Positions 28,429 to 59,486 of a stretch of 64,000 bases of DNA are shown piece after piece; position 1 is the first letter of the stretch; each line of letters starts with the position of its first letter. The stretch is taken from assembly GCF_024138145.1 (NCBI RefSeq), contig NZ_CP099998.1:1-64000 (forward strand). Reading direction: 5' to 3'. Both the position numbers and the translations under genes were made by a program. This DNA comes from Natronosalvus halobius (GTDB taxonomy: Archaea; Halobacteriota; Halobacteria; Halobacteriales; Natrialbaceae). Under the pieces are notes generated by a model. The model was not told where the DNA came from. It saw nothing but the letters and a program-made list of their open reading frames with translations, and searched no databases.

Positions 28429-28434
28429 GGCTGG

Positions 28435-42277: not shown

Positions 42278-43915
42278 TTATTGACGCCCGCGTTCGCGAA
42301 GCTTAGCTCGCCGGATCTTGCCGGTTTCCGTCTTGGGAAGTTCGGAGACGTATTCGATTTGTCGCGGGTATTTGTACGGTGCGATGCGGTCTTTTACGAA
42401 GTCCTGGAGCGTGTCGGTGAGTTCGTCGCTCGCCTCGACTCCCTCCGAGAGAACGACGAACGCCCTTACAATCTGGCCGCGCTCTTCGTCGGGACTACCG
42501 ACGACCGCCGACTCGTAGACGGTCTCGTGGTCTTCGAGGACGTTCTCCACTTCGGGACCAGGAACGTTGTAACCGCTCGTAATGATAAGGTCATCCCGGC
42601 GGGATTTGTACTCGAAGCGTCCATCCTCCCGGTGGATGAAGATATCTCCCGGTACAGACCAACCATCCCGGACTGTCTCGTTTTGCTTTTCCGGGCGGTC
42701 CCAATAGGTGATACCGGTCGGTCCGCGGACTTCCAGCAAGCCAGGTTCGCCGCGGTCAAGCTCCTCACCCGTCTCCGGATCGGCGACGCGACACTCGTAT
42801 CCTGGGACTGGGAACCCTGTCGCTGTCGGGGAAATCTCGTCGTCGTGTTGGTGGCTGATGAAAATGTGGAGCATCTCGGTGGTTCCAATCCCATCGAGGA
42901 GGTCAATCTCGAATAACTCCTTGGCTTGTTCGTACGTGCTCGGTGGAAGCGGTTCGCCGGCGCTGACGCCAATTCGAAGCGACGAGAGGTCATACTCCGA
43001 GGTGATCTTCTCTGCCTGTGAGAACAGCTGATTGTACGCCGTCGGAATCGATCCCAGAACCGTAACGCCGTACTCGTCGACCGCTCTTACGAGGTCTTCG
43101 GGCTCTGCATCCTCTATCAGGACCGTGCTTGCACCGAACCGCAGCGGGAACGCAACCTCCATCCCGTACCCAAATGTGAACGCGATGGGCGCATTGCTGC
43201 AAAAGACATCATCCTGTCTCGGGTCCAGACAGTAGTTAGCGTATCCGTCGGCGATCGCGAGCATCTGCCGGTGAGTGTGTAGCGTCCCCTTCGGTTGCCC
43301 TGTCGTTCCGCTCGTGTACGCGAGCATCACGGCATCGTCGCGGGACGTCTCGGCCGTTGACAGCGAGTCAGATTCGTCGGCGATGATTTCCTCGTACCTG
43401 TGGTAACCGTGATCACCATCGGTCCGTTCGCTGACGACGATTTCGTCGAGGACTCCCCCCTCTATCTCGTCGGCCTCAAGGACTTCCTCGAGGAGGGTTT
43501 CGTCAACGATGGCCAGCCTCGGCTCGGCGTCACTGAGCACATAGGAGATCTCGTTGGCACGGAGAAGTTTCATCGACGGGACCGGTACGGCGCCAATTTT
43601 CTGCGCCGCGAGACAAGAGACAACGTATTCTGGCCGGTTCGGGAAGCGGACGAACACTCTCTCGCCTGGTTCGATACCGAGGTTGAGCAGGGCATTGCCG
43701 AGCTTATTGACCCGCCGTTTGAGGACTTCGTAAGTGATTTCGTCTCCCTCGAAGTAGATGGCGACGTCATTGCCGCGTCCCGCTTCGACGTGGACATCGG
43801 TCATCTCGACCGCTGCATTGATCTGTTTTGGGTAGTGGAGTTCCGGTAGGCCGTTAGATAAGTCCGGCAAGGAATCTACCGATGGGAGCTTCTCGTTCGG
43901 GATGTTCTCTTGCAT
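42278..43915 (-). CDS. Benzoate/2-aminobenzoate-type CoA ligase
   Basis: A 545-residue adenylate-forming acid-CoA ligase. The phosphate loop YTSGTTGQPKG lies near residue 200, with DGIGTTEMLHIFISH, the hinge region YKSRRDDLIITSGYNVPGPEVE, and catalytic Lys in ETGKIRR. The segments AVPVPSMKLLRANEISYVL and TEMLHIFISH are characteristic of the benzoate/2-aminobenzoate-CoA ligase group rather than acetyl- or long-chain ligases. It would activate anthranilate to anthraniloyl-CoA, the substrate of the fused monooxygenase. Discrimination between benzoate, 2-aminobenzoate and related acids needs alignment of the aryl pocket. Confidence 0.83.
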   Translation of the reverse strand: MQENIPNEKLPSVDSLPDLSNGLPELHYPKQINAAVEMTDVHVEAGRGNDVAIYFEGDEITYEVLKRRVNKLGNALLNLGIEPGERVFVRFPNRPEYVVSCLAAQKIGAVPVPSMKLLRANEISYVLSDAEPRLAIVDETLLEEVLEADEIEGGVLDEIVVSERTDGDHGYHRYEEIIADESDSLSTAETSRDDAVMLAYTSGTTGQPKGTLHTHRQMLAIADGYANYCLDPRQDDVFCSNAPIAFTFGYGMEVAFPLRFGASTVLIEDAEPEDLVRAVDEYGVTVLGSIPTAYNQLFSQAEKITSEYDLSSLRIGVSAGEPLPPSTYEQAKELFEIDLLDGIGTTEMLHIFISHQHDDEISPTATGFPVPGYECRVADPETGEELDRGEPGLLEVRGPTGITYWDRPEKQNETVRDGWSVPGDIFIHREDGRFEYKSRRDDLIITSGYNVPGPEVENVLEDHETVYESAVVGSPDEERGQIVRAFVVLSEGVEASDELTDTLQDFVKDRIAPYKYPRQIEYVSELPKTETGKIRRAKLRERGRQ

Positions 43916-44039
43916 ACATCACGACTGTAACGTTAATGGGTGAAAATAGTATCGCCGCACCGACTACGCTTTGCAGTCGAATCACGAGTTCCTCACAGCG
44001 AGTTGACGTCGACGTTCGAGAAATACTACTAACAGAGGT

Positions 44040-44445
44040 CGCCGGTCTCGCTGCCAACCTGGATGTTCACTTCGTGAGGGGGTTGCCCGGTCACATAAAC
44101 GCGCTACTGGCGGAGGCTGACGTGCCTTACGACAAGATATGCGAACTCGAGGAAGTCAATCCGACGTTATCCCAGACTAACATTGTCATCGTCACGGGCG
44201 CACCGGCGTCGTCGACCGGCGCGTCAACGAAGACGGCTCCAGACCCATCGCGGGCATACCAGTCCTGGACGTTACGGACGGCGATACCGTCATCGTCGAC
44301 AGGCACAGCCTCAATCCAGGCTTCTCAGGTATTCCTAACCCGCTGTTCACAGACGACAAGACGAGACAAGACCGGCGTGTTCTCCGACAATGTGACGAAA
44401 ACTATGCAGGAATTGGTGAATCAGTACAAAGAGTCTCAGTCTTAG
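44040..44445 (+). pseudogene. pntB: C-terminal relic of a second pntB
   Basis: Plus-strand translation gives GLPGHINALLAEADVPYDK, ELEEVNPTLSQTNIVIVTGA and, after a frameshift, SRPIAGIPVLDVTDGDTVIV and FSGIPNPLFTDDK, then KTMQELVNQYKE in the first frame again. These line up in order with the NADP-binding domain of the intact pntB at 24.1-25.6 kb, but with many differences, so it is not a fresh duplicate. The membrane part and N-terminus are missing. It shows that a second pnt operon once lay here. Confidence 0.85.
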
Positions 44446-44675
44446 AGGATGTGGGGATAGGCATACATAACTCACATGTAGGGAGTTATGATCGCCTACA
44501 ATGCCGTTTCTAACACGTGAAATGAGAAGACTTCGGCAATAATATTACAAAAGTTTTGATTTCAAGACCATATCATCGCCAGATTTGAATCTTCATTGTC
44601 GTGAGAACCCCAATATTTAATACATCCCACCTAAAAAAGGTCAAAGACGAATCCCAGACAGCATGGGGGTAATTG
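44446..44675. other. Promoter region of the liv-type importer
   Basis: AT-rich region before the first permease gene. ATATTTAATAC at about 44611-44621 is a likely TATA element, and GGGGGT lies a few bases before the ATG at 44676 as a possible ribosome-binding site. Confidence 0.45.
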
Positions 44676-45533
44676 ATGGACATATCAACAATTATAGAGA
44701 TTACGATAGACGGATTCGCACGCGGAATGCTATATGCATTACTCGGAGCAGGTATTACTCTGGTATTTGGTCTCGGAAGCGTACTCAATCTCTCACTGGG
44801 AATGTTCGCTGTCATCGCAGTCGTCGCAGGGGTGGTCGCGCTACCGATCGTTTCACACCCATTACTCGCAGCCCTCGTCGGGGTGGGCGTCGTCGGCGCG
44901 ATGAGTCTCGTCGTTGACCAAACCCTTCTTACGAGCGTCTACAAGTCCGAAGGCGAGGAACGAATCACACTCGGTATTTTCACGACGCTGGGTCTCGAGA
45001 TCGCGCTCGCTGGCCTCCTCTATGTCTACTACCCCCAGACGTATGCGATTCCGTATGAGAGTTTTCTAATTCCTATCGAGGGAGTCGCCATCCGGAGTTC
45101 GACGCTTCTCGTAATCGCAATTGCAGGCTGTTTACTCGTGTTGCTCTTTCTATTCCTTCGTCGGACCTATCTCGGCAAAGCAACGCGAACCGTGTTTCAG
45201 GACGAGACAGGTGCGTTGCTTTGTGGGATCAATCCGAGAGCGATTCGTACGATAATCTTCGTGCTTAGCGCTATCATCGCAGCGATTGCAGGCATTCTCT
45301 GGAGTTTGCAATCAACAGTGAACGTCGAGTCGGCCTTCCAGCTCACGATATTCGGCATTCTCGTCTCTATTGTCGGTGGTGTGCGGAATATCAAGGGCAC
45401 TATCGCCGCTGGAATCTTTCTGGGACTCATCGTCACGTACGCTAACTATCTGATCGGATCGTACTTTTCGATGGTAATACTGTTCTCGGTAGCGGTTGGT
45501 GTCCTCGTCGCACGACCGGAGGAGATAGCATGA
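44676..45533 (+). CDS. livH: Branched-chain-type ABC transporter permease LivH
   Basis: A 285-residue membrane permease with about eight helices and the family segments GMLYALLGAGITLVFGLG and GALLCGINPRAIRTIIFVLS. The ATG at 44676 follows GGGGGT at a suitable distance; a TTG one codon earlier is less likely. First of five genes for a hydrophobic-amino-acid-type (HAAT) importer. HAAT systems also carry aromatic amino acids and aromatic acids, so tryptophan, kynurenine or anthranilate are possible cargoes here. Confidence 0.92.
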   Translation: MDISTIIEITIDGFARGMLYALLGAGITLVFGLGSVLNLSLGMFAVIAVVAGVVALPIVSHPLLAALVGVGVVGAMSLVVDQTLLTSVYKSEGEERITLGIFTTLGLEIALAGLLYVYYPQTYAIPYESFLIPIEGVAIRSSTLLVIAIAGCLLVLLFLFLRRTYLGKATRTVFQDETGALLCGINPRAIRTIIFVLSAIIAAIAGILWSLQSTVNVESAFQLTIFGILVSIVGGVRNIKGTIAAGIFLGLIVTYANYLIGSYFSMVILFSVAVGVLVARPEEIA

Positions 45534-46570
45534 GTGACCAAACCACGAGAAGCGGAATACTTCCCGACGCAGTCGTAGAGTTCAAAGATATCGCAGTGGT
45601 TATCGGTGTTCTCGCCGTATTACCGATTATATTTGACACCACTGGAACGTACCAGTTACGGCTGTTGAATCAGTTCCTGGTCTTTGCAGCCTTCGCTGTC
45701 GCACTAAACATTGCATTCGGCCACACGGACCAACTATTCCTGTTCGTCGGCGCTGTCGCCGGGGTCGGTGCGTACACCACAGCGATACTTGCAGACATTC
45801 TCGGCTTGACACCGTGGATAACCTTTCCACTCGCGGGTGTCGCAGCCGGCATAATCGGGTTGATTGTGAGCTACGTCGCTGCACGCCGTAAGATGACGGT
45901 GATCGTCATTGCCATCCTCACTTTGAGCATCCAGATGGCCATCAGCGAAATTTTCGTCGGAGCAGGTGATATCACTGGCGGGACGACTGGAATGCCCTTC
46001 AACGGACTGGAAATTCCAATTCTCGTAGATGCGATTGGAATTAGCCCACAGATGGCGACATATTACTTATTGGCAGCGTTCCTCACAATCGTCTTTCTAC
46101 TGTACAAGTGGATGATGAACTCAAAGTATGGGTTAGCGTTCAAGGCTATCCGACAAGACGAGATAGCTTCTGAGGCCGTCGGAATTAACGTCATCAAATA
46201 CAAGGTTGTCGCTGGAGTCACAGCTGCGGTGATTATCGGACTGGTCGGTCCCCTCTACGCACAAACAGAGCGATACATATTCCCAGCAATGTTTTCGTTC
46301 CAGGCCGTCGACGTTCTCGTCCTAATCATGTTAGTACTCGGCGGAATCCGAACCTTCTATGGTCCGTTATTCGGCGCTGCGCTTATCATATATATTAATC
46401 ATTTACTCGAAGATGCCGGCCAGTGGCGAACAGCGGTTCTCGGTGCGCTATTGATCGTGCTGTTCATCTACTTCCGCGAAGGCATGGTTCCAAAGGTAGA
46501 GTCATTCTGGGAAACCAAATCGGTACAACGAATTGTGTCAAGTATCAGCAAGCGTTTCCCGAATCAGTAA
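45530..46570 (+). CDS. livM: Branched-chain-type ABC transporter permease LivM
   Basis: A 346-residue permease overlapping livH by four bases (ATGA). It has about ten hydrophobic helices and the LivM segment GLAFKAIRQDEIASEAVGIN. Pairs with LivH to form the channel. Confidence 0.92.
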   Translation: MSDQTTRSGILPDAVVEFKDIAVVIGVLAVLPIIFDTTGTYQLRLLNQFLVFAAFAVALNIAFGHTDQLFLFVGAVAGVGAYTTAILADILGLTPWITFPLAGVAAGIIGLIVSYVAARRKMTVIVIAILTLSIQMAISEIFVGAGDITGGTTGMPFNGLEIPILVDAIGISPQMATYYLLAAFLTIVFLLYKWMMNSKYGLAFKAIRQDEIASEAVGINVIKYKVVAGVTAAVIIGLVGPLYAQTERYIFPAMFSFQAVDVLVLIMLVLGGIRTFYGPLFGAALIIYINHLLEDAGQWRTAVLGALLIVLFIYFREGMVPKVESFWETKSVQRIVSSISKRFPNQ

Positions 46571-46742
46571 CGCTCTATTTTCCTGGCATTGAAGCGCATC
46601 AATACCGGCCAGAAGAGTTGAAACATTTCCCCCGGTGAGATTTTAGCTCGAATATCCCACGAAGCAAAACGGTAGTTTGGCGTTTGAAGCGAAGTAGTAG
46701 ATAGGTCACCAGAATCACAACCTGCAACGAAAACCCTCGAAA

Positions 46743-46752
46743 TTTTTTTATA
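46743..46752 (+). promoter_or_regulatory. TATA-like box for livK
   Basis: TTTTTTTATA is centred about 28 bases before the ATG at 46776. It shows that the binding protein gene has its own promoter inside the cluster. Confidence 0.55.
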
Positions 46753-46775
46753 CCGGATACACAATATGGGAAGTG

Positions 46776-48047
46776 ATGACTCATAGCAAACGGGGTGGTC
46801 AGGTGGTTGATAGTGAGACAAAACCGTCGAAGAGAAGGTTCGGTCGACGGCGAATGCTCAATACTCTCGGTGGTTCAAGTGTCGCGATGCTCGCTGGTTG
46901 TATCGGTGGTGGGGACGGAGGAGACGATGATACGATCACGATAGGTTCGCTCCAGCCGCTCTCGGGGAACTTCGCGCCATGGGGGAGCGCCCATTCGGCT
47001 GGTCTCGAGTTCGCAATCGACGCGGTCAACGAGAACGGTGGGGTTCTCGATCGTGAAGTAGAAATCGTCGAGGCAGATACCGAAAGCAATCCCGGAGAAG
47101 GCGATTCGATCTTCAGGCGGTTCGCCGAACAGGAAGGGGCTGTCGCGATGACGGGCCCCGTTTCGAGTGATCTTGGTATCCGGACTGCGCAGACAGCCGA
47201 AGAAATGGAAATCCCCATCGTTTTCCACATGGCGGGCACCCACGAGGCTCTCAAAAAGAGTTCTCGATACACGTTCCGCGTTGGAAGCCTGACGGCCATG
47301 ATGGACATACAAAATCAGGTCGAACTCATCGAAGAGCGTGGGTTTGAGAACGTAGGGGCGATCATGGGCGACTACGCGTGGGGCCAATCAGTCGACGAGC
47401 AATTCGAAGAGCGGATACCCGACAGTCTCAATTTCCACAAAACGTTCGCTCCACTGGGTGAGAGTAGTTTCGAGACGTTCATCCGGGACATGCCTGAGGA
47501 TCTCGAGATGATGATTGCGTCAGGACATCCGCCCGGACAGATTTCGATCCACAACCAATTGCTCGATCTCGGATACGATCCCGAGATAACAACCGGCGCC
47601 GGCTATCCCCCGTCGGTTATTCACGGAGGGCTGGGTTCGGGGAAAGCTGAAACCTTCGGCCACATCCATATTGTAGATGTTTATGGGGATGAGTTCCAGG
47701 ACGTGGCAACGCAGTTCGCCGAACAGCGGGACGAACGGATGGATACTCACGTCGGGCTAGGCTACGTGGCCGGTGAGCTAATAACAACTGCAATCGAGCA
47801 GGCCGACTCTACCGATCCGGTCGATATCGCGACAGAGATACGGAATATCGAACTCGAGACCATTCTCGCAGCCCCACTCAAGTACACGGAATGGGGAGAA
47901 ATCGACGACGTCGTTACGATGTTCAGCACTTTCGAGAGTGAAGCACCCGACTATTATCCAGATGGGGAGTACAAGTTAAATGAGTACCATCGAAGCGAAC
48001 CCCTGAGTGCTGACATCGTAGAGCCGTACATCGAAGAAGATTGGTGA
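46776..48047 (+). CDS. livK: Branched-chain-type ABC substrate-binding lipoprotein LivK
   Basis: A 423-residue exported binding protein. The signal has a twin-Arg motif (GRRRMLNTLGG) and lipobox LAGC followed by a Gly/Asp-rich linker, so it is a Tat lipoprotein. The mature part has the type I periplasmic-binding fold (IGSLQPLSGNFAPWG, EFAIDAVNENGGVL). It starts at the ATG at 46776 with a TATA box at the right distance. Cargo unknown; the neighbourhood suggests an aromatic amino acid or acid. Confidence 0.9.
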   Translation: MTHSKRGGQVVDSETKPSKRRFGRRRMLNTLGGSSVAMLAGCIGGGDGGDDDTITIGSLQPLSGNFAPWGSAHSAGLEFAIDAVNENGGVLDREVEIVEADTESNPGEGDSIFRRFAEQEGAVAMTGPVSSDLGIRTAQTAEEMEIPIVFHMAGTHEALKKSSRYTFRVGSLTAMMDIQNQVELIEERGFENVGAIMGDYAWGQSVDEQFEERIPDSLNFHKTFAPLGESSFETFIRDMPEDLEMMIASGHPPGQISIHNQLLDLGYDPEITTGAGYPPSVIHGGLGSGKAETFGHIHIVDVYGDEFQDVATQFAEQRDERMDTHVGLGYVAGELITTAIEQADSTDPVDIATEIRNIELETILAAPLKYTEWGEIDDVVTMFSTFESEAPDYYPDGEYKLNEYHRSEPLSADIVEPYIEEDW

Positions 48048-48188
48048 TGAATTTGTCAATAGAACGCAAAGGATTTGCCCTGTGTGGTTCAGTTTAGAAA
48101 TTTCACAATTGGGGGTCACATATTAGCGTATTTCAATTAATATCACCTAGTACATAAAATTCGAGAACGATACTGGTCTGCGGAGTCG

Positions 48189-48200
48189 AAAATTATAAAC
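48189..48200 (+). promoter_or_regulatory. TATA-like box for livG
   Basis: AAAATTATAAAC is centred about 29 bases before the livG ATG, implying a separate leaderless livGF transcript. Confidence 0.55.
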
Positions 48201-48223
48201 CAAATAAGTTCGATATATGTCGT

Positions 48224-48946
48224 ATGCTTGAAGTCGATGGTTTAAGTAAGTCATTTGGAGGGTTGACTGCGGTTAACGACGTGAGCTTCGATATCGACTC
48301 TGGAGAAATAGTCGGATTGATTGGACCGAACGGTGCTGGAAAGACTACTATGTTCAATATGATATCAGGTGTGTACAAACCAAATAGCGGAGAGGTGTAT
48401 CTCGATTCTGATTCGATTACTGGAAAGCGGCCGAACGAAATTTGTAATCGGGGTGTCGTGCGCACATTCCAAATCGTTCGGACGTTCGACGAATCGACTG
48501 TTTTGGAAAACGTATTGACAGGTGCGGTCTTCGGTTCCAATAAATCCCGATCAATGGAGGAAGCCCGTGAAATCGCCCATAAGTACATCTCCTTCGTGGG
48601 AATCGATGGAAGAGAGGACACGGAAACCAGTGAACTGACAATTGCCGACCGAAAGCACGTGGAGCTGGCACGGGGATTAGCGTGTGAGCCCAAGTTAATG
48701 ATGCTTGACGAGATCGGATCCGGATTGACACCCGCAGAACTTAATGAACTCACAGAGACAATCGAACGGATCCGAGATGAACTCGGTGTATCCGTGTTCT
48801 GGATAGAACACATCATGGATGCTATATTAGGTAGTACAGACCGTGTCCTCGTTCTCAATGAGGGGCAGTTGATTGCAGAAGGAAAACCAGAAGAGATTAA
48901 AAACGACGAGAAAGTCGCGAAAGCGTACCTGGGAGGCACTGCATGA
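48224..48946 (+). CDS. livG: Branched-chain-type ABC transporter ATPase LivG
   Basis: A 240-residue ABC ATPase with Walker A GPNGAGKTT, Walker B LMMLDEIGSGLTP and the switch His in FWIEHIMDAIL. The ABC signature is atypical: where LSGGQ or LSYGQ is expected it reads LTIADRKHVELARGL. A similar LT-L-A-xRKR variant occurs in some LivG proteins, so it is probably functional. Base composition of this gene is visibly AT-richer than the catabolic genes. Overlaps livF by four bases. Confidence 0.92.
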   Translation: MLEVDGLSKSFGGLTAVNDVSFDIDSGEIVGLIGPNGAGKTTMFNMISGVYKPNSGEVYLDSDSITGKRPNEICNRGVVRTFQIVRTFDESTVLENVLTGAVFGSNKSRSMEEAREIAHKYISFVGIDGREDTETSELTIADRKHVELARGLACEPKLMMLDEIGSGLTPAELNELTETIERIRDELGVSVFWIEHIMDAILGSTDRVLVLNEGQLIAEGKPEEIKNDEKVAKAYLGGTA

Positions 48947-49641
48947 TACACATCGACGAAGTCAACGTCTCCTATGGAGACCTTCAAGTACTGTGGGACG
49001 TTTCGATGAGGATAACCTCTGAGGATCAGATCGTCGCACTCGTCGGACCAAATGGAGCCGGGAAGACGACCCTGTTGAAAACAATGTCCGGACTTCTGGA
49101 GATTGGCAGCGGTTCTATCGAGATGTTTGGTCAAAATATATCAACGCTTAATCCCGACGACATCGTCGATTTAGGCTTCGTTCACGTCTCCGAAGACCGG
49201 AATCTGTTTCACGAAATGTCGGTCATTGAAAACCTAGAGATGGGGGCGTATCTTCACCGGGACCAATTCGAGGAAACACTCGACGACGTATTCGAACTTT
49301 TCCCGGTTCTCGAAGAGCGCAGTCAACAACAGGCAGGTACTCTGAGTGGTGGCGAACAGCAAATGCTCGCGATAGGTCGCGGTCTGATGGCCCAACCCAA
49401 GGTCCTCGCATTAGACGAACTGTCCGTCGGTCTGGCCCCGCAAATTGCCCGTCGGGTGTTCGACAAGGTCGAAGGGATAAGCGAGGACATCACAGTGCTG
49501 CTAACCGAGCAACACGTTCACGAAGCGTTGGGTCTCGCCGACCGCGCGTATGTGCTTGAGAACGGTCGCATCGCCGTCGAAGATTCAGCGGAAGAACTAC
49601 TCAACAGCGACCGCGTGAAGCAATCGTATCTTCGTGAATGA
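48943..49641 (+). CDS. livF: Branched-chain-type ABC transporter ATPase LivF
   Basis: A 232-residue ABC ATPase with Walker A GPNGAGKTT, a normal signature LSGGEQQML, Walker B VLALDELSVGLAP and switch His in LTEQHVHEAL. It pairs with LivG, whose signature is unusual, so the two ATP sites may be unequal. Confidence 0.93.
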   Translation: MIHIDEVNVSYGDLQVLWDVSMRITSEDQIVALVGPNGAGKTTLLKTMSGLLEIGSGSIEMFGQNISTLNPDDIVDLGFVHVSEDRNLFHEMSVIENLEMGAYLHRDQFEETLDDVFELFPVLEERSQQQAGTLSGGEQQMLAIGRGLMAQPKVLALDELSVGLAPQIARRVFDKVEGISEDITVLLTEQHVHEALGLADRAYVLENGRIAVEDSAEELLNSDRVKQSYLRE

Positions 49642-49874
49642 GATGTTACGTCAATCCAAAGAATCCTCTATTCTTATATCAGTGATACAGCACAGTGATG
49701 GCATCACACGGATTGGGGACGAAGAGAGTCTAATTCAGAGCAAATAATGGATAAACTGGAAAGCAATCGATGTGAGTTCTTAGCATCGACCGGTATGGAT
49801 CCTGGACCATAGATATCGTCGACACAATCAGTTAGTGAGTACTGTATTGATATGGGAAACGCAAATGTAGTCAC

Positions 49875-50735
49875 TTATTTCACTTCCATCATTTCCAGAA
49901 TAGCATTGCAGAGCGGACTATTCGGCTCGAGAAAATCCTCGATAGCGGTATAATGATTCTTGTTTGGTTGGCAAAATATATCTCCATCCAGTCCATTCTG
50001 CTTCCATTCTTCGAAGTATTCCTCAGACTGGCGATGGATTTCTGACGTTTCGCTTTCCCCATAGGTGATAATCAATGGCGGGGCACTGTCAGGAACGTGT
50101 CGGATCGGACTGTTTCGGCGAACTTGCCCCCACGTTAGTTGCAACTTTGGCTGGAGATACGTGTACGGAAACGGTTCCAAATCGAACAATCCACTGATAG
50201 CACACCCTCCAAGTATCTCCTCTGAGGATATTCCATACTTTTCTTCCCACTCTGTACTCAACACCATGGCCGTCAGATGCCCGCCTGCTGAATGGCCGGC
50301 AACAAAAACACTGGAACTGTCACCACCATACTCGTCTGCATTTTCGAGTAACCAGGCGACGGCGGCTCGAGATTGCCGTACGATCTCGTCGATAGTCACG
50401 TCTGGGCAGAGCGCGTAATTCAAGACGGCAGTCGTGACGCCCGCTTTGACCAACCCCTTCGCTACGAAGCTGAACTCTTTGCTACTGAGGCTGTGCCAGT
50501 ACCCGCCGTGGATGAAGAGGACAACAGGAGCGTCTGATCGCTTGGCAGGAAAAATATCGAGGTGTTCAGCATGTGTCTGTCCATACGAGACGTCAAGATG
50601 GCACTCTAATCGTTCACGGGCATCTTCGCTCTCTTCGACATAAAAATCTGCATAAGACTGGAAATCATCGACAGTCTCTCGAAGGTTATATTGCGCGTCT
50701 AGTTCCTCTTGCGAGGAGAATTCACGGTACATCAT
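49875..50735 (-). CDS. Kynurenine formamidase-like alpha/beta hydrolase
   Basis: A 286-residue alpha/beta hydrolase of the arylformamidase (AFMID-like) type. The HGGYW oxyanion motif, nucleophile Ser in GHSAGGH, a block DLEPFPYTYL after AISGLF, and a late NHYTAIEDF with the catalytic His match N-formylkynurenine hydrolases. This reaction releases formate and kynurenine and links the dioxygenase (56.3 kb) to kynureninase (55.0 kb), for which no other formamidase is visible. It is divergent from an acyl-CoA ligase with 138 bases between starts. Other small esterases share this fold, so substrate is inferred. Confidence 0.82.
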   Translation of the reverse strand: MMYREFSSQEELDAQYNLRETVDDFQSYADFYVEESEDARERLECHLDVSYGQTHAEHLDIFPAKRSDAPVVLFIHGGYWHSLSSKEFSFVAKGLVKAGVTTAVLNYALCPDVTIDEIVRQSRAAVAWLLENADEYGGDSSSVFVAGHSAGGHLTAMVLSTEWEEKYGISSEEILGGCAISGLFDLEPFPYTYLQPKLQLTWGQVRRNSPIRHVPDSAPPLIITYGESETSEIHRQSEEYFEEWKQNGLDGDIFCQPNKNHYTAIEDFLEPNSPLCNAILEMMEVK

Positions 50736-50873
50736 GGTACTATATTATCAGAAGGCGCCTTAAAAGGTGTGACAATTCAACATCCCCTAGTTATTTGTCA
50801 ATATTTAATAAATATATCATATGTTTTCAACTTTAGCTATAGGAATTAATACCGTGGCACATGAATCGCTCGT

Positions 50874-52442
50874 ATGGCTTTCCCTATTATTAGCGATATT
50901 CTCACTCAAGCAGCGGAGAGACATCCCGAACGGACCGCAGTTCGTGATCCTCAGCGAGGAGAAAAACGCTCGTTCGCGGAGCTAGATGAACGCGCCCGGG
51001 AACTTGCAGCAGGGCTGAATGAGGCTGGCCTCAACCCCGGAGACCATCTGACAGTTATGCTCGTCGACTCGATTGAGTTCCTCGAATGCATGTTTGCGAG
51101 CGCACATGCAGGTCTCGTCTTTAATCCCATCTCCTACCGAATGGCGCCCGAGCGACTCGCATATGTTCTTGAGCACGCCGAGTCAACGGCGTTGGTGTTT
51201 GACACTCACTGTATCGATACCGTTACCAAACTGAACGCCACCGATCGGCCAGCGGTCGAGATTGGCGTCCGAATTGATGAACCCCTCGCTAACCGCTCGT
51301 ACGAGTTGCTACTTGAGGAGAGTCCTGGACGGTTTGTAGATGATTCACCAGTCGCCATTAACGAATCTGATCCCGCATTGTTACTGTATACATCTGGAAC
51401 AACAGGTCGTCCCAAGGGGGTTCTCCACTCCCACCGGAGCGCTATCGAGGCTGCCCTCGCTCCTATGCCGTTCAGTCGGTTCCGACCGACAGACGTCACC
51501 CTCGCACTGGGACCAATGTACCACGTTGGCCCGCTGCTCTGTAATATCCTCCCGGGACTCGTGGTGGGTGCGTCGGTGATTATCCAGCGAGAGTTCGATC
51601 CGCGTCGCACTCTCGAATGGGTCGAGTCCGAAGCGATCACCGCAATTTGGGGCGTCCCAACTCACTATCGGGCGCTCATTGATGAAGAATCAATCGATGA
51701 TCGTGACGTAACGCATCTTCGGATGCTCCAGTACTCGGGTTCGGCAATGCCCGAGCCAGTAGCACGGCGCTGTCGGGAGTACATTCCGGAGTGTGATTTT
51801 GTCAACGCGTATGGTACGACGGAGATCGTTTTTGGGACCGTATTGTTCCCGGAGTACCACGATAAGAAGCTCGGCAGCATCGGTCAGGCGGTACCAAAGG
51901 CGACAGTCCGCGTCGTCGATCCTGAGAATCCAGCCCCGGATACGACTGTTCCCACGGGCGAGGTTGGTGAACTCCTCGTACAGACACCGACTTGCATGCT
52001 TGAGTACTGGAACGATCCTGAGAAGACTGACGAAGCAATCATCGAGGGCTGGTACAGGACTGGTGATCTTGGGCGGCAAGATGAGGACGGGTTCCTCTAC
52101 TTTGTCGATCGAAAAGACGATATGATTGTCAGCGGCGGCGAGAACATCTATCCTGCAGAGGTTGAGAATGTCCTGCATGACCACCCTGACGTGACCGCCG
52201 GGATAGTCGTTGGGATCCCTGACGAGCAGTGGGGTGAGATCGTAACAGCGTTCGTAGTTCCCACAGACAACTCGTTAACTGAAGACGACCTCGAGGATTA
52301 CTTCACTAATTCGGGCGTGCTAGAAGATTACAAACGCCCGCGTCAGTACGAATTCCGTGACGAATTGCCAATGACTCAAAGCGACAAGATTGATCGACAG
52401 ACCCTGCTCGAGTCTATCGTTGACGATAAATCCTCTATGTGA
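50874..52442 (+). CDS. Acyl-CoA synthetase (AMP-forming)
   Basis: A 522-residue adenylate-forming ligase with YTSGTTGRPKGVLHSH, NAYGTTE, the hinge WYRTGDLGRQDEDGFLYFVD and IVSGGENIYPAEVE. Unlike the 42.3 kb ligase it resembles general medium-chain or aryl acyl-CoA synthetases. The terminal catalytic Lys region reads MTQSDKIDRQTL where TxSGKIxR is common, a small deviation. It may activate a ring-cleaved acid or an alternative aromatic acid. Confidence 0.9.
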   Translation: MAFPIISDILTQAAERHPERTAVRDPQRGEKRSFAELDERARELAAGLNEAGLNPGDHLTVMLVDSIEFLECMFASAHAGLVFNPISYRMAPERLAYVLEHAESTALVFDTHCIDTVTKLNATDRPAVEIGVRIDEPLANRSYELLLEESPGRFVDDSPVAINESDPALLLYTSGTTGRPKGVLHSHRSAIEAALAPMPFSRFRPTDVTLALGPMYHVGPLLCNILPGLVVGASVIIQREFDPRRTLEWVESEAITAIWGVPTHYRALIDEESIDDRDVTHLRMLQYSGSAMPEPVARRCREYIPECDFVNAYGTTEIVFGTVLFPEYHDKKLGSIGQAVPKATVRVVDPENPAPDTTVPTGEVGELLVQTPTCMLEYWNDPEKTDEAIIEGWYRTGDLGRQDEDGFLYFVDRKDDMIVSGGENIYPAEVENVLHDHPDVTAGIVVGIPDEQWGEIVTAFVVPTDNSLTEDDLEDYFTNSGVLEDYKRPRQYEFRDELPMTQSDKIDRQTLLESIVDDKSSM

Positions 52443-52475
52443 CATCCTCCGCGCCCTTCGGGGCGCGGCTTCCCG
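52443..52475. repeat. Hairpin like the end of an IS200/IS605 (TnpB) element, or a terminator
   Basis: A perfect hairpin has arms CCGCGCCC (52449-52456) and GGGCGCGG (52461-52468) with loop TTCG, right after a ligase stop codon. GACATCCTCC before it and GCTTCCCG after it resemble the right end of haloarchaeal TnpB-type elements. No tnpB is present. A transcription terminator is the other possibility. Left of it the composition is moderate; right of it begins the GC-rich trpB-kynU-IDO block. Confidence 0.5.
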
Positions 52476-52633
52476 TACCGAAGGTGTGATATTTGCCGGT
52501 CTACGACACGACCTGTCCTCTGATTCACCAACAAGTCCTTCTCAAGAACAAAGTTTAAAATGTTACACTCCGCACCGAATTCGCCCCTCGATGTACGGTA
52601 CTATGCATCATGTCATGTGCTCACGGGATACAC

Positions 52634-52642
52634 ATTTATTTG
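52634..52642 (+). promoter_or_regulatory. TATA-like box for trpB
   Basis: ATTTATTTG is centred about 30 bases before the ATG at 52668 and supports that start over the longer open frame. Confidence 0.5.
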
Positions 52643-52667
52643 GTGGGACGAAAATGTTTACGTGAGT

Positions 52668-53822
52668 ATGGGTACAGATAACTTCGGCGAATACGGCGGT
52701 CGCCACGTCCCCGAACCGCTCCACGAACCGCTCGAGCAGCTCGCGAACGCGTACGACGAAATCGGCACGAGCAAGGAGTTCCAGGCGGAGTTCCGGCGCC
52801 ATCTCGAGGAGTACGCCGGTCGACCGACGCCGCTGTACTACGCCGGCAATCTAAGCGATCGATACGACGCCGACATCTACCTCAAACGAGAGGATCTGCT
52901 CCACGGCGGCGCACACAAGATTAACAACTGTCTAGGCCAGGCGCTGCTCGCGAAGAAGGCCGGAAAAGACCGGCTGATCGCGGAGACGGGCGCCGGCCAG
53001 CACGGCACCGCGACGGCGATGGTCGGCGCGCTGTTCGACCTCAAGACGGAGATCTACATGGGGAAGAAAGACGTTGAGCGCCAGAAGATGAACGTCTTCC
53101 GGATGCGCCTGATGGGAGCCGAGGTCAACGAGGTCACGCAAGGTGGAGAAGGGCTCGCGGACGCCGTCGACGCCGCGCTCGAGGACCTCGTCGAGAACGT
53201 CGAGCACACTCACTACCTCGTTGGCAGCGTCGTCGGGCCGGACCCGTTCCCGCGGATGGTTCGGGACTTCCAGAGCACCATCGGCGACGAGGCCCGCGAA
53301 CAGTTCCTCGAGCGAACGGGCGACCTGCCGGACGCCGCGGTCGCGTGCGTTGGCGGCGGCTCCAACGCCATGGGGCTGTTCCACGCGTTCCGTGACGACG
53401 ACGTCGAATTCTACGGTGCCGAAGGCGGCGGAGAGGGTGCCGACTCGACGAGACACGCCGCTCCGCTCGCGAAGGGGAAAGACGAGGTCATCCACGGCAT
53501 GAAGACGAGAGTCATCGACGACGATGTCGAGGTCCACTCCGTTTCGGCTGGTCTGGACTACCCCGGCGTCGGCCCGGAACACGCCATGTTCCGCGAGGTC
53601 GGCCGCTGCGAGTACACCGCCATCACCGACGACGAGGCTCTCGCCGCCTTCCGCGAACTCAGCGAAACCGAGGGGATCATCCCGGCGCTCGAGTCGAGCC
53701 ACGGCGTCGCTCGAGCGATCCAGTTGGCTGAAGAGGGCGACCACGAGACGATCCTCGTGAACCTCTCCGGGCGCGGCGACAAGGACATGGAGACCGCGGC
53801 GGAGAAGTTCGACTTCGACTGA
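52668..53822 (+). CDS. trpB: Tryptophan synthase beta subunit
   Basis: A 384-residue PLP enzyme that makes tryptophan from indole and serine. PLP Lys84 lies in [10 protein letters not shown], catalytic Glu106 in AETGAGQHG, and the phosphate loop is GGGSNAMG. All are intact. The ATG at 52668 fits family N-termini ([13 protein letters not shown]) and has a TATA box 30 bases before it. No trpA or trpC is adjacent, so it is a lone TrpB beside tryptophan-degrading genes. It might salvage indole, or supply substrate to the degradation route. GC content rises visibly from here to 57.5 kb, unlike the liv genes to the left. Confidence 0.94.
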
Positions 53823-53875
53823 TTACGCGGGCCTGTTTCGGTCGATTCGCACCCGAGCGCATCCTCTCGAACCCT

Positions 53876-54820
53876 TCACGCGAGCCTCGACCGAACGTTC
53901 TCGGCGAGCGCGCCCATCGCCTCGTCGGCCCGTTCGACGTCGTCGGTCATGCTGAAGAAACCGTGCGTAAGCGTCGGGTAGTGGTCGTGTTCGGTCGGGA
54001 CGCCGTGGTCGGACAGTTTCTCGGCGTAGGCGGCACCCTCGTCCCGAAGCACGTCGTGTCCCGCCGTCACGACCGTCGTAGGGGCCACACCCGAGAGATC
54101 CGGCGCGCGCAACACCGTTGCGAACGGGTTGCGTTCGTCGACCGGACTCCGGAGGTACTGGTCCCAGAACCAGCGCACGCCGTTTTCCGTGAGCAATGGT
54201 CCGTCGCCGTGCTCGCGATAGGAGTCGCGATCGAACGAGCGATCGGTCATCGGGTACAGCAGAAACTGGCCGTCGAGGTCCGGTCCGTTGGCTCCGCTAT
54301 CGCGCGCCCGCAGCGCCGTCGCCGCGGCGAGGTTTCCGCCGGCGCTCGTCCCCGCCACGCCCAGCCGATCCGGATCGCCGCTGAGCGAGTCGGCGTAGTT
54401 GGCCGCCCACTCGAGGGCGGCGTAGGCGTCGTCGACCGCCGCTGGGAAAGGGTGTTCAGGTGCGAGGCGGTAGTCGACCGAGAGAACGAGACACTCCGCA
54501 CGGGCAGCCAGTTCTCGGCAGATGTCGTCCGCAGAGTCGAGCGTCCCCAGCGTCCAGCCGCCGCCGTGGTAGAACACCAGCGTCGACGGACGCTCGGCGG
54601 GTGGACGATAGACTCTGATCGGCAGATCGCCGCCGGGACCGTCGATCCGCAGATCCCGGACCGACCGCATCTCGGGACCGCTGCCGGCCGAGAACACCTC
54701 GTCCTCGAGCCGGCGGGCGCTCTCGACCGACAGCGAGTACCAGGGCGGGATGCCGGCCGTCTGAATCTCGTCGATGACGCCCTCGAGTTCGGGGTCCAGT
54801 TCGTCGCTCGCGTCATTCAT
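53876..54820 (-). CDS. Alpha/beta hydrolase, hormone-sensitive-lipase (HSL) type
   Basis: A 314-residue hydrolase with the HSL oxyanion motif FYHGGGW, nucleophile Ser in AGTSAGGN, an Asp in AGHDVLRDEG and His in LTHGFFSM. Residues 1-70 form the usual cap. It probably cleaves a short-chain or aryl ester. Between trpB and kynU it might serve as a second formamidase, but the 49.9 kb gene matches that role better. Confidence 0.9.
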   Translation of the reverse strand: MNDASDELDPELEGVIDEIQTAGIPPWYSLSVESARRLEDEVFSAGSGPEMRSVRDLRIDGPGGDLPIRVYRPPAERPSTLVFYHGGGWTLGTLDSADDICRELAARAECLVLSVDYRLAPEHPFPAAVDDAYAALEWAANYADSLSGDPDRLGVAGTSAGGNLAAATALRARDSGANGPDLDGQFLLYPMTDRSFDRDSYREHGDGPLLTENGVRWFWDQYLRSPVDERNPFATVLRAPDLSGVAPTTVVTAGHDVLRDEGAAYAEKLSDHGVPTEHDHYPTLTHGFFSMTDDVERADEAMGALAENVRSRLA

Positions 54821-54983
54821 GTCCCGAATGAGGACCGAGTGAACGTTTAATCTTTTTCGTATCGTGGATCAACGTCGGACGGGAGCAGCGATAAACGAAC
54901 GACGACCGTTCGTCCGCCGACGGGATCCCGAATCGTCACAAAACGTCGAAACGTTCCTGTAGGTTCCTCTCGAGAGTGAACAC

Positions 54984-56309
54984 ATGGACTCGAACGCGGA
55001 CGACGACGCGCCCGCCGAACGCCACACCAGTGACCATCGAACCGGCCACGAGTACGCTCACAAGCGCGACGACACCGCCCCGCTCGCAACGCTCCGGGAT
55101 CGCTTCGACATCCCCGACGAGCTCTACATGGACGGCAACTCGCTTGGCCCGATCTCAGAAGATGCCAAGCGAACCCTGGACCGGGCGATCGACCAGTGGC
55201 GCGAACTGGGCATCCAGGGCTGGACCGAGGCCGAGCCGCCGTGGTTCTGGTACGGCGAACGCCTGGGCGATGAGCTCGCACCGCTGCTGGGCGCCCGCGA
55301 GGAGGAAGTGGTCGTCGGAAACTCGACGACCGTCAACATCCACACGCTGATCGGCACGTTCCTCGATCACTTGGGGCCGGACGTCCCCCGCGGCGTGCTG
55401 GTCAACGAACTCGACTTCCCCACCGACCACTACGCGATCCGCGCCCAGCTCCGCCAGCGGGGGCTCGACCCGGACGAGCATCTCCACGTGGTCGAGAGTC
55501 GCGACGGACGGACGGTCGAGACCGAAGACGTCGTCGCCGCGATGGACGAACACGACGTCGGCATCGCCTTCATGCCCTCCGTCCTCTACCGCAGTGGACA
55601 GCTGTTCGACCTCGAGCGGATCACCGAAGCGGCCCACGAGCGTGGAATCCTCGCGGGGTTCGATCTCGCACACTCGATCGGCGTCGTTCCCCACAAACTC
55701 TCTGATATCGACGTCGACTTCGCGGTCTGGTGTAGCTACAAGTACCTCAACGCGGGGCCGGGAGCGATCGCCGGACTCTACGTCGACGAGCGCCACTTCG
55801 ACGTGACGCCCGCGCTCTCGGGCTGGTGGGGGCACGACAAGGAGACGCAGTTCGAGCTGAATCTCGAGTTCACGCCGGCTGACGGCGCCGGCGCCTGGCA
55901 GATCGGTACGGTCCCCGTCTTCAGCGCGGCGCCGTTGTTCGGCTCGATCGAACTGGTCAGGGAGGCCGGCATCGAGGCGATTCGCGAGAAGTCGCTCGCG
56001 CTTACGTCGTACCTCCTCTTCCTCGCCGATGAGCGCCTCGCCGAACGCGGCTTCGCGGTCGGAACGCCACGAGATCCCGACCGACGTGGCGGCCACGTCG
56101 CGCTCGAGCACTCCGAGGCCGAGCGGATCAGCCAGGCCCTACGGAATCGCGGCATCATCGTGGACTTCCGGCCTCCCAACGTCATCCGCGTCTGTCCGGC
56201 GCCGCTGTACGTCGGATTCGAGGACGTCCTCGATGTCGTCGACGAACTGTGCGAGATCGTCGACGAGAAAGCGTACGAACAGTACGAGACGAAGAGCGAA
56301 GTGACGTAA
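54984..56309 (+). CDS. kynU: Kynureninase
   Basis: A 441-residue fold-type I PLP enzyme that cleaves kynurenine to anthranilate and alanine. Family blocks are YMDGNSLGP near residue 50, GNSTTVNIH at 112-120, MPSVLYRSGQL, the aspartate-bearing FDLAHSIGVVP near 227, and the PLP Lys253 in WCSYKYLNAGPG. Late segments RGGHVAL and PPNVIRVCPAPLY are also typical. The gene converges on the dioxygenase gene with nine bases between them. An N-terminal extension of about 25 residues is acidic and not conserved. It is the branch point that yields anthranilate. Confidence 0.95.
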   Translation: MDSNADDDAPAERHTSDHRTGHEYAHKRDDTAPLATLRDRFDIPDELYMDGNSLGPISEDAKRTLDRAIDQWRELGIQGWTEAEPPWFWYGERLGDELAPLLGAREEEVVVGNSTTVNIHTLIGTFLDHLGPDVPRGVLVNELDFPTDHYAIRAQLRQRGLDPDEHLHVVESRDGRTVETEDVVAAMDEHDVGIAFMPSVLYRSGQLFDLERITEAAHERGILAGFDLAHSIGVVPHKLSDIDVDFAVWCSYKYLNAGPGAIAGLYVDERHFDVTPALSGWWGHDKETQFELNLEFTPADGAGAWQIGTVPVFSAAPLFGSIELVREAGIEAIREKSLALTSYLLFLADERLAERGFAVGTPRDPDRRGGHVALEHSEAERISQALRNRGIIVDFRPPNVIRVCPAPLYVGFEDVLDVVDELCEIVDEKAYEQYETKSEVT

Positions 56310-56318
56310 CGAACCCGT

Positions 56319-57482
56319 TCAGATCTTCTGGGATTCAGTCTCTTTTTTCAACTTCGGGAGGAAGTCCATGTAATCGGTCCCGCCGGTTCCGGTGGTATCG
56401 CCAGTTACTTCGTTGATGTACTGAGCGACCTGGCTGAAGTGGACCCGTCGGAAGTCGCCGAGTTCGTCCATACAGCGGTTGTACTCGGCACGGAGGTCCT
56501 CGCGATCGCTATCGGCCACGAAGGGGCCCACGTCGGGTCCCTCGTCGAACGCCGCGATGACGGATCGGTGAGTCTCCGGCATGTAGCTTCGCATGTCAAT
56601 CAGTTTCTCGATCAGGTCCGTGGCGGCGTGGTCGACCCCGAGCACAGCGTCGATCGACGGCAGGACCGAACTCTGGGCGCCCGAACCACCCCGCATCGTC
56701 TGGGGCGTTCCCTCGAGTTCGTCGACCCCTTCGTAGACGACCTCGTCGAACCCGTTGTAGTAGGGTCGATAGTTTCGGGCGAACGCCTCGGGATCGTTGT
56801 TCTCGGTCATTCGAGCCATGATCGTGGTTTGCTCCTCGAGCGCGTCACCAATCGTCTCGAGGGCCGGGAGTAGTGCGTCGGGATCGTTGTCGCGGACAGC
56901 TTGCTGAGCGCGCGCACAGGCGGTCAGCGCGGGCCCAGCCCTAGCTTCGATCGCGACGTGGATCACGACGAACCACCGCTCGTCGGACAGCGACGTGAAC
57001 TGCTGAACGGTGTCCAGGTTTTCAACGTCGAAGCCGGTGTCTCGGTCGCATTGCTGCCAGTTGTGCAGACAGAGCATGTCGTACGAAAGGATCGGCTTTC
57101 GACCGAACCGCTGCGAGGTTCGATACAGCGGCACGGCCGCGCCGGCTGGAAGCCGATCGACGGGATCGGCACCGATATCGTTGACATACGCGCTCGCGAA
57201 GAAACCGCTGAGCAGACACAGCCGGACCGTTTCGCGCTCGGAGAGCGCCTCGAACAGTCCGTCCGGTGGCGGTTCGAGATCGCGGACGGCCGGCCGAAGG
57301 GATCCGTCCTCGAGTCGGCCGGGAAGTTCGGCCCCGACCCGGTCGAACTCGCGAAGGTAGCTCGCGATTGGCCGGTCGTGTACGTCGATCTCGAATGAGC
57401 GCAGGGGGTCCGATTCGGGAAGGAACCCGCGTCCGGCGGTGATATCGTATTCCTCGAGAACCTCCGTCGCAGGTTGAACCAT
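56319..57482 (-). CDS. Indoleamine 2,3-dioxygenase family heme enzyme
   Basis: A 387-residue heme dioxygenase that opens the indole ring of tryptophan to N-formylkynurenine. The IDO hallmarks are GGSGAQSSVLPSID and the proximal heme ligand His305 in YMPETHR. Others are LSYDMLCLHNW and the segment ERWFVVIHVAIEA. Length and motifs fit IDO rather than tetrameric TDO. The ATG at 57482 is chosen because the 15 upstream codons of the longer frame have no similarity. It is the first enzyme of the kynurenine route and is convergent with kynU. Confidence 0.92.
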   Translation of the reverse strand: MVQPATEVLEEYDITAGRGFLPESDPLRSFEIDVHDRPIASYLREFDRVGAELPGRLEDGSLRPAVRDLEPPPDGLFEALSERETVRLCLLSGFFASAYVNDIGADPVDRLPAGAAVPLYRTSQRFGRKPILSYDMLCLHNWQQCDRDTGFDVENLDTVQQFTSLSDERWFVVIHVAIEARAGPALTACARAQQAVRDNDPDALLPALETIGDALEEQTTIMARMTENNDPEAFARNYRPYYNGFDEVVYEGVDELEGTPQTMRGGSGAQSSVLPSIDAVLGVDHAATDLIEKLIDMRSYMPETHRSVIAAFDEGPDVGPFVADSDREDLRAEYNRCMDELGDFRRVHFSQVAQYINEVTGDTTGTGGTDYMDFLPKLKKETESQKI

Positions 57483-57659
57483 CTTATAACTGCTACACTC
57501 TCGAGTACTATGAAAATTTGTCCGCATACAGACACATTGATGTGCAGATATGGTGGCTGGCTCGAGTTCCCGGTGAAAAATGTGCTGGTCCGGGGGTCGG
57601 TTCTCATTCCCCTTCGCACTGGATCGACACTGACGGATCGCTCGAACAGGCCGAGACTA

Positions 57660-58283: not shown

Positions 58284-59486
58284 CTAACGGCTCGACTCTT
58301 CACAGGCTGCGATAATCACATCTGGATCGTCAACGAGACGGTTTTCCATGTAGTTCCCCTTGCCTTTCCCGGCCCACTTGCGCTCTTGCTCGATAATTGA
58401 GAGAAACTCGAGTTCCGAGAGGATGTCGCGGACACGTCGGAGTTTCAAATGCGAGGAGTCATCGCGTTCACACAAACGTTTGTAGAGGTCGTAGACTTCC
58501 GTCGTCTGCACTGCGTCGTCGGTTCGGTCGGGTTGTTTGACAAGCAAAGCCATCGCCTCGAGGACGAGCTTCGCATGGCTGGGCGATTTTGAAATTAACT
58601 CTGCTAGTCGACTCGTCTCCTCACGCTCGTGTGCGAGGTTGACACAGGTTTCAGTAACGGTCTCAAGATGCTGTTCCTCAGCTATTTCGCCGGCAAATCG
58701 AAGGATGTCAATCGCTTTACGTGCGTCACCGTGTTCTCGTGCAGCTAACGCAGCAACTCGAGGAACAACACCGTCTTCCAGGACGCCGTCATGGAACGCA
58801 TCGGATCGCGAATGAAGGATCTCCTGGATCTGAGTTGCATCGTACGGAGGAAAGACGTACTCGCGTTCACAGAGACTCGATTTGATGCGTTCGTCAAGCG
58901 ATTCTTTGTATCGAATCTTGTTCGAGATGCCAATCGTTCCGATAGTGCTGGAGGAGAGCTTTCCGGATTCGACCGCTCGAGAGAGTTGCATGAGAATGTC
59001 GTCTGATTCCATTTTGTCGACTTCGTCGAGGATAACGAGTGCGGCATCGAACTGTTGGTCGATTATCTGCCACAGGCGGCGGTAGTATTCCGATGTGCTC
59101 AAACCAGAGTGGGGAATCGAGATACCAGTTGTATCTTTGTCGTTGAGCTGATGACCGAGTGACTGGACAGCCTGTGTCTCGGTCGATTCCTGGAGACAGT
59201 CGACGTAGGCTACACCGATTGTAACACCATTATCCGCTGCTCGGGAAATTGCCTGGTTCGTGATGAACTTCGAGCAAAGGGACTTTCCAGTACCTGTTTT
59301 TCCGTACACGAGTACGTTGTTCGGTGTATTTCCGGTAAGCGCAGGCTGAATTGCGCCGGCAAGATTCGTGAGTTCCTGTTCGCGGCCAATGATTCGGTCT
59401 CCATCGGGAAGGTGAGACACCTGTAAGAGATCTTTGTTCCGGAAGATCTCGTTTTCTCGAGTGAAGTAGTCGCGGGATTCAGGCAT
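58284..59486 (-). CDS. Orc1/Cdc6 family replication initiator
   Basis: A 400-residue AAA+ initiator. Walker A is YGKTGTGKS (residues 61-69), Walker B LVILDEVDKM near 155, the sensor region IGTIGISNK follows, and a C-terminal winged-helix domain follows from about 300. It would bind the iterated boxes immediately upstream of its own start (59531-59880) and load the replicative helicase. Each haloarchaeal replicon typically pairs an orc gene with its own specific box sequence. Placement next to such repeats makes it the likely initiator of this replicon. Confidence 0.95.
   Translation of the reverse strand: MPESRDYFTRENEIFRNKDLLQVSHLPDGDRIIGREQELTNLAGAIQPALTGNTPNNVLVYGKTGTGKSLCSKFITNQAISRAADNGVTIGVAYVDCLQESTETQAVQSLGHQLNDKDTTGISIPHSGLSTSEYYRRLWQIIDQQFDAALVILDEVDKMESDDILMQLSRAVESGKLSSSTIGTIGISNKIRYKESLDERIKSSLCEREYVFPPYDATQIQEILHSRSDAFHDGVLEDGVVPRVAALAAREHGDARKAIDILRFAGEIAEEQHLETVTETCVNLAHEREETSRLAELISKSPSHAKLVLEAMALLVKQPDRTDDAVQTTEVYDLYKRLCERDDSSHLKLRRVRDILSELEFLSIIEQERKWAGKGKGNYMENRLVDDPDVIIAACEESSR

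Follow-up and report, generated by a model that had tools for sequence, protein, structure and literature searches.

Background

Aerobic degradation of tryptophan and anthranilate by way of anthraniloyl-CoA (2-aminobenzoyl-CoA) is known from bacteria. In Arthrobacter sp. Rue61a, two anthranilate-CoA ligases have been assayed, and anthraniloyl-CoA was detected in anthranilate-grown cells (PMC3534580). A whole tryptophan cluster lies on plasmid pSR1 of Aminobacter (locus L007), where ~28 kb hold genes for a hydrolase, a ligase, a tryptophan dioxygenase (TDO), a Liv importer, kynureninase (KynU), a monooxygenase/reductase fusion, an SDR dehydrogenase, a crotonase, an acyl-CoA dehydrogenase and RidA, in addition to a 3-hydroxyacyl-CoA dehydrogenase and a thiolase; the clusters of Thalassospira (L147) and Roseivivax are similar. 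A literature search found no description of archaeal tryptophan catabolism via anthraniloyl-CoA. Here we analyse a 64-kb stretch of DNA from the haloarchaeon Natronosalvus halobius (hereafter the window), which forms the start of a 293,861-bp contig in a three-contig genome with a 3.51-Mb contig alongside. The window probably holds the full predicted gene set leading from tryptophan through kynurenine and anthraniloyl-CoA to dearomatisation and beta-oxidation.

Results

A conserved gene set linking indoleamine 2,3-dioxygenase to a predicted CoA-ester ring monooxygenase

The first-pass annotation of the window had proposed a plasmid-borne tryptophan pathway from genes for an indoleamine 2,3-dioxygenase (IDO), an arylformamidase-like hydrolase, a kynureninase and an aryl-CoA ligase, with a complete importer among them and a fused monooxygenase/reductase gene to their left. 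All of the open reading frames named there are open in the window. The pathway itself is upheld because gene content and synteny are conserved in unrelated haloarchaeal families, because IDO and the fusion co-occur, and because of bacterial parallels and the ligase tree. The set of genes was incomplete, missing a second hydrolase (hydrolase B), a TrpB paralogue, an LLM-class oxidoreductase and the downstream genes at 6260-18697 and 29812-30276. As a conserved unit, the tryptophan/anthranilate-CoA module is well supported. Judged from sequence, it is likely to be a catabolic one, through which tryptophan, and probably kynurenine and anthranilate, would serve as carbon and nitrogen source.

We surveyed 392 genomes of the order, with kynureninase and hydrolase A counted over 384 genomes. 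IDO was present in 24 of the 392 and a close homologue of the fusion (at least 58% identity) in 16, all 16 of which fall within the IDO-bearing 24 (hypergeometric 7e-23, relatedness ignored; at least four families). More distant fusion homologues (44–51% identity) occur in eight genomes, none of which has IDO; Natrinema, the one member of this branch inspected, instead carries genes for a cupin dioxygenase and FAH. At least 15 further haloarchaeal genomes have the IDO-linked gene set. On the plasmid side, those of Natronococcus sp. CG52 and AD-5, Haladaptatus salinisoli, H. caseinilyticus, H. pallidirubidus and Halomicrococcus gelatinilyticus share genes for IDO, KynU, TrpB, the ligase, the LLM protein, the fusion, RidA, acyl-CoA dehydrogenase, MaoC, SDR and crotonase, and in Natronococcus sp. 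CG52 the whole set falls within one 20-kb block. IDO and the fusion are at most 21 kb apart in 10 of the 16 genomes; elsewhere the distance is 42 kb (the window), 128 kb (Halomicrococcus) or 705 kb (G377), or the two lie on separate contigs.

Since the 293,861-bp contig carries its own Orc1/Cdc6 gene (58284-59486), it is a plasmid or second replicon. The description of the module as plasmid-borne thus applies to the window's contig but not throughout, the module being chromosomal in some relatives: three genomes of the window's family (G106, G087 and G169) carry it on their largest contig, with IDO ~2.2 kb from the fusion.

Two side observations concern module composition. The H. pallidirubidus plasmid locus (L004, 60000-108000) is a mosaic in which the IclR-LLM-fusion-E1ab-NitT block is closest to the window (67–83%) and the remainder is Haladaptatus-like; blocks have therefore been exchanged between families. 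In Haladaptatus and Halomicrococcus modules, a BtrH_N/DUF4872 protein lies beside KynU or TrpB (L002:18086-19069, L003:12874-13854, L004:31272-32252, L006:19272-20246); none was seen in the window.

Predicted steps from tryptophan to anthraniloyl-CoA

The IDO gene (56319-57527, minus strand), predicted to convert tryptophan to N-formylkynurenine, matches PF01231 with 244 bits and bears out the earlier assignment; the open reading frame runs to 57527, and the previously given end at 57482 is an alternative start. H363 aligns with the proximal-haem His346 of human IDO1 and is invariant across six haloarchaeal IDOs. A scan of genome contigs with IDO returned six loci only. No TDO was found in the window's own genome or across 13 haloarchaeal genomes tested.

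Kynureninase (54984-56309, plus strand) was also correctly recognised, scoring 353 bits against TIGR01814 (cut-off 246). The pyridoxal-phosphate lysine is retained (K253), and W80, G308 and T309 occupy the positions of human H102, S332 and N333. These positions set the preference for 3-hydroxykynurenine (human) or kynurenine (bacterial), with W/G/T being of the kynurenine type. The residues at the specificity positions thus fit an enzyme predicted to prefer kynurenine and to release anthranilate and alanine. Kynureninase is common in the order (174 of 384 genomes) and IDO rare (24 of 392), so that in most haloarchaea kynureninase must have other roles or other sources of kynurenine.

Two alpha/beta hydrolases are candidate formamidases. 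Hydrolase A (49875-50735, minus strand; PF20434), the arylformamidase-like protein of the first-pass annotation, has an 'IHGGYW' motif; its third-best solved relative is the kynurenine formamidase 4e11 (E=1.6e-16), and it shares 25–27% identity with the hydrolase of bacterial tryptophan/anthranilate clusters. It is rare (7/384 genomes). The other modules lack it, but a wider search placed orthologues 51–58 bp from KynU in four genomes, all of a different genus; an amino-acid permease gene lies upstream in the two of these that were inspected. Hydrolase B (53876-54820, minus strand), of the HSL/LipP1 type, is the syntenic candidate, with orthologues (54–92% identity) adjoining KynU or IDO in 15 of the 24 IDO genomes; it also passes a LipP1-family lipase model (390 bits, cut-off 350). 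Both are kept as candidates because hydrolase A adjoins KynU in another genus. The original choice of hydrolase A is reasonable given its motif, its solved relative and that linkage, but not certain, hydrolase B being the one conserved beside KynU and IDO. A KynB-type cyclase on the same replicon (C2:282138) is an unlikely formamidase, scoring 59 bits against a cut-off of 223 and lying beside thiolases and a CoA ligase.

In genus g30 (L168, L169), an amino-acid permease gene lies upstream of kynureninase and hydrolase A in an operon-like arrangement, and IDO and TDO are absent from the genome; these sets suggest import of formylkynurenine or kynurenine. Within the window, a stretch of ~80 bp (52439-52521) between a second CoA ligase gene and TrpB resembles transposase/TnpB genes and may mark an insertion through which hydrolase A and that ligase were acquired.

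Aryl-CoA ligase 1 (42278-43915, minus strand), first annotated as being of the benzoate/2-aminobenzoate type, matches the benzoate-CoA ligase family (TIGR02262, 388 bits, cut-off 375) and is predicted to be a 2-aminobenzoate-CoA ligase. In the ligase tree, the haloarchaeal enzymes join the ligases of bacterial anthranilate clusters (SH-aLRT 88), apart from solved benzoate-CoA ligases and from the solved anthranilate-CoA ligase 4wv3. Most modules have an orthologue. The importer among these genes is a complete LivH-M-K-G-F set of the branched-chain/aromatic amino-acid type (44673-49641, plus strand), as had been reported, with two permeases (PF02653 twice), a binding protein (PF13458) and two ATPases (PF00005 twice). 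An orthologous set is found in two Natronococcus modules, and a Liv set in bacterial clusters too.

Predicted steps from anthraniloyl-CoA to beta-oxidation

The fusion gene (13831-15993, plus strand) joins an FAD monooxygenase to an old yellow enzyme (OYE) domain (PF01494 FAD_binding_3 and PF00724 Oxidored_FMN, full length) and is predicted to encode a 2-aminobenzoyl-CoA monooxygenase/reductase (ACMR). It was rightly placed to the left of the ligase, although 26 kb away rather than 28 kb. AbmG had been proposed as a comparison for it; the fusion is of the ACMR type, and AbmG is the name of the ligase and not of the fusion.

Immediately before the fusion lies a gene for an LLM-class (luciferase-like) flavin/F420 oxidoreductase (12948-13808, plus strand; PF00296). 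In all annotated modules, ACMR has as its neighbour an LLM protein of 68–82% identity; the reading frames of the two overlap in Haladaptatus salinisoli, H. caseinilyticus and Halomicrococcus. The protein is nearest to the F420 subfamily TIGR03619, below its cut-off; no F420 model was passed, and the structure prediction has a pLDDT of 34. A second copy of CofH, an enzyme of coenzyme F420 biosynthesis, is encoded nearby (10078-11475, minus strand; PRK07360, 531 bits, cut-off 426). The other CofH above cut-off is on the 3.5-Mb contig (C1:2857229), and the plasmid copy is not conserved in other modules. Taken together, the LLM partner and the nearby CofH are hints of a role for F420.

The genes expected to act after anthraniloyl-CoA are located at 6–18.7 kb and at 29.8 kb of the window. 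Those for RidA, SDR, crotonase and acyl-CoA dehydrogenase are co-clustered, as expected for the aerobic 2-aminobenzoyl-CoA pathway. The crotonase-fold protein (6260-7045, minus strand; PF00378) is an enoyl-CoA hydratase or candidate ring-cleavage enzyme and is conserved, as is the SDR dehydrogenase (8793-9572, plus strand; PF13561). RidA (9654-10061, plus strand; PF01042, 75 bits), a predicted enamine/imine hydrolase acting after ring reduction, is found in both archaeal and bacterial anthranilate clusters. The product of 11588-12751 (minus strand) is a glutaryl-CoA dehydrogenase, scoring 424 bits to solved glutaryl-CoA dehydrogenases and 274 bits to the next other named enzyme, with relatives of 75–82% identity adjoining ACMR or IDO in six genomes. 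Further genes encode an acetyl-CoA C-acyltransferase (thiolase; 16311-17438, minus strand; TIGR01930, 458 bits, cut-off 241), conserved in G309 only, a second acyl-CoA dehydrogenase of the beta-oxidation type (17561-18697, plus strand; PF00441), with 60–84% identity in modules, and a conserved MaoC-type hydratase (29812-30276, plus strand; PF01575). An IclR-family regulator (7736-8488, plus strand; PF01614/PF09339) has 68–76% identity to counterparts in four other modules.

A TrpB paralogue and indole as a possible entry substrate

The window also encodes a stand-alone tryptophan synthase beta paralogue (TrpB1; 52560-53822, plus strand; TIGR00263, 546 bits, cut-off 392), predicted to form tryptophan from indole and serine. 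Its catalytic Lys/Glu/Asp/Ser motifs are retained in the alignment. In the TrpB tree it falls in a second haloarchaeal clade, far from the separate biosynthetic copy that lies beside trpC in the genome. In 16 of the 24 IDO genomes, two of which have no ACMR gene, a gene of this clade lies no more than ~22 kb from IDO or ACMR. Mapping module membership on the tree needs four changes, at least three of them forced by well-supported branches, which fits repeated recruitment into, or loss from, modules.

These observations raise the possibility that indole is the entry substrate as much as tryptophan: TrpB and serine would give tryptophan, which IDO, formamidase and KynU would take to anthranilate and alanine. 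We consider this reading less likely than not. It is plausible because TrpB lies near so many IDO loci, may have been recruited repeatedly and has intact motifs, and in Bifidobacterium TrpB indole salvage feeds a downstream tryptophan route (PMC11085991). Against it, the same clade is found in 217 of the 392 genomes, mostly without IDO, which led us to reject TrpB as an IDO-specific gene. The cluster has no indole-specific gene, TrpB could simply supplement the tryptophan pool or recapture indole that has leaked out, and in Halomicrococcus TrpB sits with the ACMR half, away from the IDO half. When the neighbours of stand-alone TrpB copies were clustered, unannotated, their flanks showed no recurrent module-like neighbour set. 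A combined scheme, in which free indole would be degraded via tryptophan built by repeatedly recruited TrpB and an F420-linked LLM reductase would aid dearomatisation of anthraniloyl-CoA, appears doubtful.

Observations against a tryptophan pathway and alternative substrates

For the tryptophan pathway as a whole, IDO turnover is the main doubt: enzymes of two of the three IDO branches act on tryptophan very slowly (PMC4217691). Several further observations weigh on the same side. Haloarchaeal IDO gave higher scores against plasmid IDOs of Methylocystis and Sphingobium than against human IDOs, the scores coming from different programs, and the two alphaproteobacterial plasmid IDOs inspected have no kynurenine-pathway neighbours. 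The window contains two rival formamidases, and its upper (IDO/KynU side) and lower (fusion side) halves are ~23 kb apart. Haloarchaeal ligase paralogues at 60% identity lie in Paa-type clusters, so that we can only infer the substrate of ligase 1. The fusion reaches 828 bits against PRK08255, named salicylyl-CoA 5-hydroxylase, below the cut-off of 1078, and the fusion tree shows gentisate-linked enzymes nested among the bacterial enzymes linked to anthranilate.

Because of that nesting, the function of the fusion cannot be read from its position in the tree, where the archaeal enzymes form their own clade. We rejected the fusion phylogeny as a test of substrate since it is non-decisive; only eleven columns discriminate between the two bacterial fusion types, too few to use. 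Ligase and monooxygenase taken together did not cluster firmly with non-anthranilate enzymes, the outcome that the first-pass annotation had singled out as damaging, with the monooxygenase tree alone being non-decisive.

The NCBIfam name of the fusion, the related ligases in Paa-type clusters and the wide separation of the halves in Halomicrococcus and G377 would also agree with a lower half that serves another CoA-activated aromatic acid, such as salicylate, benzoate or phenylacetate, the IDO/KynU half being an unrelated neighbour. We consider this improbable. The close fusion is always accompanied by IDO at genome level (16/16), the cluster includes RidA, which is expected for an amino-substituted ring, and the ligase groups with ligases of bacterial anthranilate clusters. 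In addition, tblastn with both gentisate dioxygenase probes and an FAH probe gave no match in the window or in five representative modules (L001, L002, L004, L006, L063). A role of the upper half outside growth, with its kynurenine or anthranilate going into NAD synthesis, signalling or detoxification, would suit the frequency of kynureninase beside the rarity of IDO but is very unlikely, as the KynU residues fit kynurenine and not 3-hydroxykynurenine, and importers and ring-degradation genes are co-clustered.

Other genes in the window

A second AMP-forming CoA ligase (ligase 2; 50874-52442, plus strand) is of the long-chain type (PRK06187, 464 bits, below the cut-off of 476), and none of the compared module loci has an orthologue. 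Genes for 2-oxoacid dehydrogenase E1b, E1a, E3 and E2 and a NitT-type ABC importer occupy 27439-37402, and both G309 and H. pallidirubidus have E1ab and NitT genes at the ACMR locus. The full 2-oxoacid dehydrogenase set, together with transhydrogenase PntB/PntA genes, lies between the two halves of the module (24143-33494); the fusion has E1 genes nearby in G309, G377 (E1b) and H. pallidirubidus as well. We rejected alanine dehydrogenase as an identity for 25924-27168, which scores 379 bits as transhydrogenase subunit alpha (cut-off 383) and 131 as alanine dehydrogenase. A promoter and terminator scan gave no excess over shuffles; promoters of the bacterial type would not be expected in an archaeon.

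Discussion

In the pathway that we infer from these genes, IDO would open the indole ring, hydrolase A and/or B would remove formate, kynureninase would release anthranilate and alanine, and ligase 1 would form anthraniloyl-CoA. The ring would then be hydroxylated and dearomatised at the CoA-ester stage by the fusion with its LLM partner. Beyond the ligase, the predicted order has RidA removing the amino group and the crotonase opening the ring, after which SDR, acyl-CoA dehydrogenase, MaoC, thiolase and glutaryl-CoA dehydrogenase would oxidise the C7 chain. Substrate would be supplied by the Liv and NitT importers, whose specificity, like all of the substrates named here, is predicted.

If correct, this would extend archaeal aromatic catabolism by a CoA route that dearomatises the ring, and would place IDO, an enzyme discussed mainly for its part in eukaryotic immunity, in a catabolic setting in archaea. 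The module would also be an example of catabolic genes that recombine and travel across haloarchaeal families and from one replicon to another. Two specific predictions, indole entry and F420-linked reduction, follow from the conservation of TrpB and the LLM protein as partners.

Comparison with known systems

Among the closest counterparts are the bacterial tryptophan clusters of Aminobacter pSR1 and Thalassospira, which likewise hold the whole route in one region and share KynU, the ligase, ACMR, downstream genes and an HGGYW-type hydrolase; they use TDO (KynA), whereas the archaeal modules use IDO. A Liv importer is often part of bacterial anthranilate-CoA plasmid clusters, as it is in the window. 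With the bacterial aerobic 2-aminobenzoyl-CoA pathway (Azoarcus evansii, Arthrobacter sp. Rue61a), the haloarchaeal modules have in common the ligase, fusion, RidA, SDR, crotonase and acyl-CoA dehydrogenase. Only the haloarchaeal ones have an LLM protein beside the fusion, MaoC, TrpB and sometimes glutaryl-CoA dehydrogenase and a CofH copy, and their fusion is ~50 residues shorter than the bacterial protein. Salicylyl-CoA 5-hydroxylase/gentisate clusters have the same fusion architecture, and haloarchaeal cases also have a nearby AMP ligase. In the gentisate-type clusters (Natrinema and two bacteria), however, a cupin dioxygenase and FAH replace RidA, crotonase and acyl-CoA dehydrogenase, and the haloarchaeal homologues of this branch, at 44–47% identity to the window's fusion, occur without IDO. 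The IDO and kynureninase families are shared with the eukaryotic and bacterial kynurenine pathway, although residues and neighbours point the haloarchaeal route to anthranilate and not to 3-hydroxyanthranilate and NAD. The haloarchaeal module is thus an archaeal variant of a pathway otherwise known from bacteria, with archaeal features such as the linked TrpB.

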